DNA of 21,967 bases from Collinsella aerofaciens (GTDB lineage: Bacteria > Actinomycetota > Coriobacteriia > Coriobacteriales > Coriobacteriaceae), in assembly GCF_028207065.1 (NCBI RefSeq), contig NZ_JAQLFP010000036.1, forward strand, positions 1 through 21,967, given 5' to 3'. Numbering within the stretch: position 1 is the stretch's first letter; every line of letters begins with the position of its first letter. Of the stretch, positions 15,433 through 15,976 are shown one piece after another. Position numbers and translations under genes: made by a program. The notes beneath the pieces are model-generated. The model made no database searches, was not told the DNA's origin, and saw only the letters and a program-made list of their open reading frames with translations.

Positions 15433-15523
15433 GGAGAGTTGTCCGAGTGGCCGAAGGAGCACGATTGGAAATCGTGTAGGCGTCAAAAGCGTCTCCAGGG
15501 TTCAAATCCCTGACTCTCCGCCA
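15433..15523 (+). tRNA. tRNA-Ser (anticodon GGA)
   Basis: The cloverleaf is clear: acceptor GGAGAGT pairs with ACTCTCC, followed by G and an encoded CCA. The anticodon arm CACGA-TTGGAAA-TCGTG carries GGA at 15467-15469. A long variable arm, as expected for serine tRNA, precedes the T-arm CAGGGTTCAAATCCCTG. A terminator follows. Confidence 0.97.
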
Positions 15524-15571: not shown

Positions 15572-15662
15572 GGAGGGGTGGCAGAGTGGTTGAATGCGGC
15601 GGTCTCGAAAACCGTTTGGCCTGTATAAGGTCACGAGGGTTCGAATCCCTCCTCCTCCGCCA
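15572..15662 (+). tRNA. tRNA-Ser (anticodon CGA)
   Basis: Acceptor GGAGGGG pairs with CTCCTCC (one G-T pair), followed by G and CCA. The anticodon loop CTCGAAA carries CGA at 15606-15608, reading UCG. The variable arm is long and the T-arm is GAGGG-TTCGAAT-CCCTC. Its last 25 bases (15637-15661) recur inverted at 15727-15751. Confidence 0.97.
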
Positions 15663-15673
15663 TTTTGGTTGAG

Positions 15674-15702
15674 AAAGCTCCCGAAAACGGGGGCTTTTTT
15701 GT
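15674..15702 (+). terminator. Terminator after tRNA-Ser(CGA)
   Basis: AAAGC-T-CCCG, loop AAAA, CGGG-G-GCTTT, followed by TTTGTTT. It stands 11 bases after the CCA end. Confidence 0.9.
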
Positions 15703-15726
15703 TTAGAGTCCCTTACAAGCAAATAC

Positions 15727-15887
15727 GGCGGAGGAGGAGGGATTCGAACCCGCCAGGGCGCGGAGCGTAAAGAAAACGCGCCACTGGCGCGTTTTTAGCG
15801 CAGCGCGGTCGGTGCAAGCCGACCGAATAAATTTTGAGCTCCGCTCAAAATTTGGACATCCCTCCTATTCAGCCACGTCCCCCATTG
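15727..15887 (-). other. Multi-hairpin element with a tRNA-Ser 3' end (tRNA-like remnant or repeat)
   Basis: On the minus strand the element starts GGGGGACGTGGCTGAATAGG, which resembles the 5' acceptor and D-arm of a serine tRNA. It ends with 25 bases identical to the 3' end of tRNA-Ser(CGA), including T-loop TTCGAAT. The two ends could pair at 6 of 7 acceptor positions. Between them, instead of an anticodon arm, lie three perfect hairpins: 15829-15853 (AAATTTTGAGC arms), 15806-15825 (CGGTCGG arms) and 15773-15795 (AAAACGCGCC arms). A further 9-bp pairing joins 15735-15743 to 15858-15866. No recognisable anticodon arm remains. It could be an interrupted tRNA pseudogene, a mobile palindromic repeat or a structured RNA. 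Confidence 0.65.
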
Positions 15888-15909: not shown

Positions 15910-15976
15910 CAAACATGTACGTCACCCTCCAAAACCGACATTTTTCGACATCTTTGGAGGCTGATGTACATGTTTG
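15910..15976. repeat. Long imperfect palindrome with paired CGACAT repeats in its loop
   Basis: The 24-base arms at 15910-15933 and 15953-15976 are complementary at 22 positions, beginning CAAACATGTAC and ending GTACATGTTTG. The 19-base loop contains CGACAT twice. No T-run follows on either strand. It may be a dispersed palindromic repeat or an operator region. The rest of the gene-free stretch to 16090 shows no other convincing feature beyond the ribosome binding site of the next gene. Confidence 0.75.

Follow-up and report, generated by a model that had tools for sequence, protein, structure and literature searches.

Gene-free, hairpin-rich DNA units at the 3' ends of tRNA genes in Collinsella and its relatives look like miniature mobile elements

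Introduction

The 3' ends of tRNA genes are the commonest insertion sites of bacterial islands. To our knowledge, the elements found at such sites are kilobases long and carry an integrase of their own. Among integrons, gene-less cassettes and arrays without an integrase exist; the boxes of their attC sites follow the consensus R'' (RYYYAAC) and R' (GTTRRRY).

Several systems close to the one reported here have been described. Mycobacteriophage Ms6 joins its host in the T-loop of tRNA-Ala (PMC1762012). Prokaryotic tRNA fragments are presented as integration scars, the elements between the full and the partial tRNA copy being about 9-23 kb long (PMC9897764). The island finder Islander drops candidates that have no integrase or are shorter than 2 kb (PMC4383910), and units of the kind described below would therefore not be listed there.

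The DNA analyzed here (the window) is a stretch of 21,967 nucleotides from Collinsella aerofaciens (NZ_JAQLFP010000036.1), in which a tRNA-Ser(CGA) gene is followed by a short, hairpin-rich unit. Judged from the sequences compared, this unit belongs to a family of gene-free DNA elements located at the 3' ends of many different tRNA genes.

Results

The unit behind tRNA-Ser(CGA)

A preliminary description of the window placed an element at positions 15727-15887, with 25 bases identical to the 3' end of the neighbouring tRNA-Ser(CGA) in the opposite orientation, and with perfect hairpins of 11, 7, and 10 bp. The sequence contains the element at this place, the identity is borne out by an inverted repeat (I1, arms of 30 nt, 93% complementary), and all three hairpins are present by inspection and by a script count (Table 1). 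The minus strand of the element (161 nt) folds at −72.7 kcal/mol, compared to −56.3 ± 4.5 kcal/mol for 200 dinucleotide shuffles (z −3.65), none of which folded as well.

The other end of the element had been taken for the 5' half of a tRNA-Ser. Read on the other strand, that segment is 15858-15875, which directly repeats the tRNA-Ser 3' end at 15 of 18 positions (D1). The two end segments can pair, as had been proposed, because the supposed 5' half is a reverse-complemented copy of a tRNA 3' end. The idea of a tRNA gene interrupted by a palindromic repeat fails on the same point: no 5' half exists, and the corresponding segment in relatives copies the 3' end of the adjacent tRNA, usually exactly (tRNA-Val, Glu, Gly, Arg, Leu, Lys, and others). 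A structured RNA that mimics tRNA found no support here, as ARAGORN and Rfam called no tRNA at the element, only the two flanking tRNA-Ser genes, and no Rfam 15 family except tRNA reached the gathering score in the window. Weak Rfam matches (E up to 10), with scores below gathering, were discarded as chance. Direct repeats of the integrase type had been set aside on the ground that the copy is inverted; both exist, the inverted T-arm inside the unit and the direct repeat at its far edge, and the latter is, as we read the locus, the main clue to the nature of the element. The far-edge copy in the window has decayed, and the window unit is therefore probably fixed.

A long palindrome adjoins the unit (15910-15976; arms of 24 nt, 92%; fold z −7.55). 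Several relatives have a similar sequence close to tRNA-Ser(CGA), whether or not a unit is present, and the 22-nt core of the palindrome (up to three mismatches) was found in three of five genomes, at 2-4 copies each.

Table 1. Features of the tRNA-Ser(CGA) locus in the window.
Feature	Position	Strand	Basis
Second tRNA-Ser gene, GGA	15433-15523		ARAGORN, Rfam
tRNA-Ser(CGA), host gene	15572-15662	+	ARAGORN, Rfam
Unit, 213 bp tail to tail	15645-15857	+	D1 spacing of 213; relatives with the same plan
Near edge of unit: last 18 nt of tRNA-Ser(CGA), T-loop nt 59 to CCA	15645-15662	+	Direct repeat D1
Intrinsic-terminator-like hairpin (AGCTCCCG/CGGGGGCT) and T-run, 3' of tRNA-Ser(CGA)	15676-15700	+	Sequence reading
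Inverted copy of tRNA-Ser T-arm and 3' end: 25 nt, GGGTTCGAATCCCTCCTCCTCCGCC on the minus strand, identical to 15637-15661	15727-15751	-	Repeat I1
Predicted closing stem P1, one side (AGGAGGGAT), pairing with 15858-15866 (ATCCCTCCT)	15735-15743	.	Predicted fold; repeat I3
Small hairpin D, CCC-TGGC-GGG on the minus strand	15749-15758	-	Sequence; motif in relatives
Hairpin C, 10 bp, loop ACT/AGT	15773-15795	.	Sequence and script count
Hairpin B, 7 bp, loop of 6	15806-15825	.	Sequence and script count
Hairpin A, 11 bp, loop TCC/GGA	15829-15853	.	Sequence and script count
GGAC, module edge adjoining the tail copy	15854-15857	+	GGAC or a close variant in many relatives
Decayed direct copy of tRNA-Ser 3' end, 15/18 (83%)	15858-15875	+	Repeat D1

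Anatomy of the units and their tail copies

Relatives of the window unit share one plan. Seen in the orientation of the tRNA, its 3' part (nt 59 to CCA) comes first, and behind it stand a terminator and the inverted T-arm (GGGATTCGAACCC). One small hairpin (CCCGNCAGGG) and three larger ones follow, then an edge (GGAC, for example) and a copy of nt 59 to CCA. The terminator-like hairpin seen in the window stands at the corresponding place in other units too. Units occur singly or in tandem, and their typical size is about 190 bp; tail-to-tail lengths are mostly 130-227 bp (range 95-227 bp in 152 rows, among them a few neighbouring tRNA genes such as the tRNA-Ile pair of the window). The module ends are inverted repeats of the T-stem, 4-9 nt long, with an 18-nt copy of the target at the far edge. 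In many loci this tail copy extends into the terminator, unlike a duplication of fixed length.

Tail copies matching at least 16 of 18 positions were present 70-330 nt away in 92 of 244 distinct tRNA contexts, a fraction that is not a rate, since the contexts come from loci mostly fetched by motif. Seventy-nine of the 92 copies are exact (18/18), and 17 isoacceptors are represented. The plan is repeated at no fewer than 17 tRNA isoacceptors, chiefly in Collinsella and sister genera; the 17 labels were assigned by script, part of the units having been inspected by eye, and Leu-CAA is not among them. A less biased sample comes from one genome (G024), for which the full set of 57 tRNA genes was covered. 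An exact tail copy that is no part of a neighbouring tRNA gene stands behind seven of them, namely Val-TAC, Gly-CCC, Leu-CAA, Leu-CAG, Lys-TTT, and two of the three Arg-ACG genes. Imperfect copies lie behind Gln-TTG (15/18) and Ser-CGA (14/18), and Ser-GCT and Arg-CCT have the inverted T-arm only. Upstream copies at 16/18 or better were seen solely beside repeated tRNA genes.

The inverted arm follows the host tRNA. Over 91 units, it agrees with nt 59 of its own tRNA in 100% and with nt 60 in 99% of cases, compared to 54% and 73%, respectively, for other tRNAs. Positions 61-62 are CC nearly everywhere and uninformative, while positions 63 and 64 match the own tRNA in 86% and 66%, and other tRNAs in 76% and 26%.

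In the tRNA-Gly arrays (L152, L161, L139, and others), a second cassette type of about 131 bp stands in tandem behind the first; it has hairpin A and the GGAC edge of the first type and is without the terminator-T-arm part. A recurring stretch like CAAAAAATGGCAAAAATGAGTACTG lies just past the last unit at tRNA-Val (L198-L227), tRNA-Glu (L145/L146), and tRNA-Leu-CAG (L289) loci.

Distribution over genomes and tRNAs

When the window element was compared with 58 genomes, near-complete matches (E 2e-37 or better) were obtained in eight, all among the 35 genomes of the same genus. Seven of the eight lie behind tRNA-Ser(CGA) and one (G025) behind tRNA-Ser(TGA); through partial matches, units of this plan were found at further tRNAs. 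A search motif was taken from hairpin D (CCCTG(N)CGGGTTCGA). In the form CCCTG(N)CGGGTTCGARTCCC, it occurs in 28 of 43 genomes of the genus, while the reversed control occurs in none. The hairpin module, which the preliminary description had suggested seeking elsewhere, is thus common in related genomes and not confined to the window.

Among 84,980 species genomes, the motif was found in 103 stretches, 70 of them titled Collinsella. At 73 of the 103 loci (64 of the 73 in Collinsella), the opposite strand carries a tRNA 20-300 nt behind the match; the remainder includes tRNA-Leu genes and chance matches, and two (L056, L098) of the nine non-Collinsella loci with a tRNA are doubtful. Outside Collinsella, units with a tRNA come, by the MAG assignments as deposited, from Coriobacteriaceae MAGs, Enorma, Eggerthellales (tRNA-Arg), two Coriobacteriia MAGs (tRNA-Trp), and one Clostridiales MAG (tRNA-Ala). 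An Agrococcus MAG (L045) holds a stretch that looks unit-like by eye, on a short contig without a tRNA.

A covariance model (R1), with no more than nine candidates scored per genome, matched in at least 12 of 396 Actinomycetota genomes, each of which belongs to the same family as the relatives of the window; the model is rough, the first automatic structure of its alignment (A2) being partial and two rows of A2 being misplaced by one base at the 5' end. At all 30 of the R1 loci fetched, an adjacent tRNA gene points at the match, and 24 of the 30 have a tail copy of at least 16/18.

Gain, loss, and change of host tRNA

The tRNA-Ser(CGA) 3' pattern is found in 40 of 43 genomes of the genus. Inspection of 30 such loci by eye revealed a full unit in 11, a remnant in five, and none in 14. 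The tRNA-Val 3' pattern is present in 37 genomes, and most of the 30 loci fetched have one or several units; in one of them (G026, L221), three near-identical units stand in tandem. Across strains, the tRNA-Val units differ in the kind and order of their terminators and in the type of hairpin B.

Presence and absence at the same tRNA can be compared directly. In 21 locus pairs with identity above 93%, a single stretch of 130-203 bp makes the difference (four tRNA-Glu, 13 tRNA-Gly, and four tRNA-Val pairs). The pairs are not independent, since certain genomes appear twice under different names. At tRNA-Glu, a locus without a unit (G024, L280) is 97% identical over 739 nt to one with a 189-bp unit (G007, L017), and the alignment gap lies directly behind TTCGA of the T-loop; owing to small indels, an ungapped breakpoint comparison did not hold up for this pair (223 of 700). 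At tRNA-Val, G009 and G063 differ by one extra 185-bp unit, with 439 of 440 nt identical. Insertion and deletion are indistinguishable in such pairs, and the tRNA-Val and tRNA-Gly pairs, which lie in tandem arrays, could be due to unequal crossing-over. A stretch of about 1.4 kb resembling an insertion sequence lies within the tRNA-Glu terminator of three loci (L280, L017, L146).

On a tree of 86 modules, the tRNA label changes 20 times, the minimum being 10 and the mean of shuffled labels 55.4. The tree is based on 108 columns, has good support at nine of its 83 inner branches, and joins long branches to each other. As far as this poorly resolved tree goes, modules appear to stay with one tRNA for a long time and yet to have changed host tRNA repeatedly, most clearly in the Collinsella tanakaei group.

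Could all of this have arisen without mobility? The units may be ancient insertions that no longer move, with copy number and spread produced by unequal crossing-over, gene conversion, and replication slippage at palindromes and repeated tRNA ends. Most gains and losses do fall within tandem arrays, the tRNA-Gly modules form one group on the tree, as do the tRNA-Glu modules, and the loops of the Ser-CGA set, which are reverse complements of each other, would be a sign of palindrome flipping. However, the account does not sit well with tRNA-Glu genes that have either no unit at all or one (L280/L017), with a repeated change of tRNA in which the new tRNA's own 3' end always stands at the edge, or with a far edge that lies at nt 59 in unit after unit. 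We regard an origin through homologous processes of this kind as unlikely.

Structure of the hairpins

Within the tRNA-Gly set (16 distinct modules of equal length), 95.7% of cells are paired, compared to 27-48% when the partners are slid, and changes on both sides occur in seven of 36 pairs, compared to none or one when slid. Four of five pair statistics exceed all 500 shuffles, and the fifth runs in the opposite direction (seven further pair types vs. 8.1 in shuffles, 498 of the 500 shuffles being as high). For 74 full modules folded with DNA parameters, the mean z is −3.36, with 53 modules below −2 and 21 above it, and perfect hairpins number 2.43 per module on average, compared to 0.83 in shuffles. 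The data support the hairpins. In the Ser-CGA set, three-base loops occur as the reverse-complement pairs TCC/GGA, ACT/AGT, and CGT/ACG, and we read them as probable traces of palindrome flipping at the DNA level.

A conserved multi-hairpin fold with two-sided changes in the tRNA-Gly set, in a fixed position and orientation to the tRNA, is also what a structured regulatory RNA would look like, transcribed from the minus strand or by read-through of the tRNA, with the hairpins conserved for RNA function. This explanation is very improbable: no Rfam family except tRNA was matched in the window, and none except tRNA and the FMN riboswitch in nine further loci (gathering score); the sequence past the tail copy, where a promoter would be placed, varies by tRNA, a further unit or a terminator often being found there; and about half of the Ser-CGA loci have no unit.

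Searches for a recombinase, phages, and plasmids

Matches to the phage-integrase family (PF00589) number two to six per genome in four genomes. None of the 12 tyrosine recombinase loci fetched from these genomes lies beside a tRNA, and no recombinase could be linked to units in the four genomes by PF00589. A search with the window element (blastn, E 1e-5) was negative for units in both the phage (50,697) and the plasmid (72,556) records, and phage or plasmid cargo was accordingly rejected as a candidate. The sole yield from viral contigs was one prophage edge with an inverted T-arm.

Prophages at Collinsella tRNA-Gly (L090) and tRNA-Glu (L054, L096) also carry units or the inverted T-arm, and the L090 prophage starts with an integrase-like reading frame. 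In two viral contigs (L031, L033), a T-arm and a matching 7-bp acceptor-like stem, with nothing between them, form a mini-tRNA-like hairpin.

That the units are attachment-site debris of ordinary phages or conjugative islands integrating in tRNA genes is barely credible, even though prophages sit at the same tRNAs and islands typically leave a displaced tRNA 3' fragment as their scar (PMC4383910), because the same module with the same hairpins recurs at 17 or more isoacceptors and in tandem, the phage and plasmid records hold no unit, and the L090 prophage joins in the anticodon region rather than at nt 59. An ordinary prophage scar (L090, L054, L096) was rejected as well.

Discussion

We consider it likely that the element in the window is a member of a family of gene-free, non-autonomous, site-specific mobile cassettes of about 130-230 bp that occupy tRNA 3' ends. 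Such a cassette consists of a copy of the host tRNA 3' end (nt 59 to CCA), a terminator, the inverted T-arm, and three hairpins. It would enter or leave at the T-loop, between nt 58 and nt 59. The tRNA would then be completed by the copy that the cassette brings, and its former 3' end would be pushed outward to the far edge, as happens with ordinary tRNA-gene islands; tandem arrays would result when such events are repeated. The unit contains no gene, and the enzyme would therefore have to come in trans; we presume that it is a recombinase with site specificity, the tyrosine family being the most likely one. Once folded and closed by P1, the hairpins may serve in recognition or replication. 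The preliminary description had offered a tRNA-derived selfish element as one of its three readings, and this came nearest; selfishness of the cassette, as opposed to usefulness, seems to us plausible. The cassette model does not explain how a unit that switches to another tRNA gains the 3' end of that tRNA.

It also speaks against the model that the junction expected of a circular form (..GGAC|ATCCC) would, unlike a classical attP, not include the left half of the T-loop core. A more specific and tentative proposal, to which we give a minor though real chance, is an integron-like system, in which the tRNA T-arm is the insertion site and the recombination site of the gene-free cassettes arises only in the folded minus strand. 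The left half of the T-loop core, absent at the far edge, is present in inverted form inside the unit. In the putative minus-strand fold, P1 would pair the inverted T-arm with the T-stem strand of the tRNA and so rebuild the core, which would read GGGTTCGAATCCC on one strand. New cassettes would enter next to the tRNA, and older ones would be shifted outward and decay. Adaptation of the P1 strand to its host tRNA might have let the cassettes colonise numerous isoacceptors within a single genome, unseen by island finders.

If the cassette reading holds, a family of about 190 bp that consists of sites and hairpins alone, spreads over many tRNA genes, and forms arrays would comprise the smallest tRNA islands known to us. 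With dozens of cores, both occupied and empty, the units would provide natural experiments on T-loop recombination, and they raise the question of which enzyme moves them. Should the folded strand be the substrate, the single-strand principle known from integron cassettes would have a second instance, unrelated to the first. The units also matter for annotation, since the tRNA fragments and inverted T-arms to which they give rise are open to misreading, as happened in the window. No description of such units was found in the open-access journal literature searched; they have the appearance of a miniature mobile DNA of a type not yet described.

How do they compare to known systems? With tRNA-gene islands of the tyrosine integrase class II, such as Ms6, they share an intact tRNA, a displaced, co-oriented 3' fragment at the opposite end, a join in the T-loop, and tandem arrays. 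The cognate fragment is exact in 79 of 92 units and matches at 15 of 18 positions in the window. Unlike such islands, the units have no gene, measure about 190 bp, contain an inverted T-arm and three hairpins, and occupy many tRNA species per genome. There is no integrase inside or overlapping them, the window unit being 213 bp and units in general too short to encode one, and they are shorter than the 2 kb set by the Islander filter.

Integron cassettes are likewise short tandem units behind a fixed site, and end in an imperfect palindrome with pairing ends, as those of the unit are predicted to be. The logic of a folded attC would resemble that of the unit, which has P1 in the predicted fold and an inverted arm that follows nt 59-60 of the host tRNA. 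In contrast to integrons, the fixed site would be the T-arm of a tRNA, and no integron integrase was seen beside units; attC itself was rejected, as the R'' and R' boxes are absent from the module ends on both strands (none of 75 modules).

MITEs and REP/BIME palindromes (GTAG/CGTC-tagged, TnpA-REP) likewise lack genes, are short, dispersed, and rich in hairpins, and presumably depend on enzymes supplied in trans for their movement; the units differ from them in their fixed place at tRNA 3' ends and in their 18-nt tRNA copy. Finally, the units share with the tRNA gene fragments of PMC9897764 the presence of partial tRNA copies left by integration, but are about 0.2 kb long and without genes, compared to about 9-23 kb for the elements reported there.
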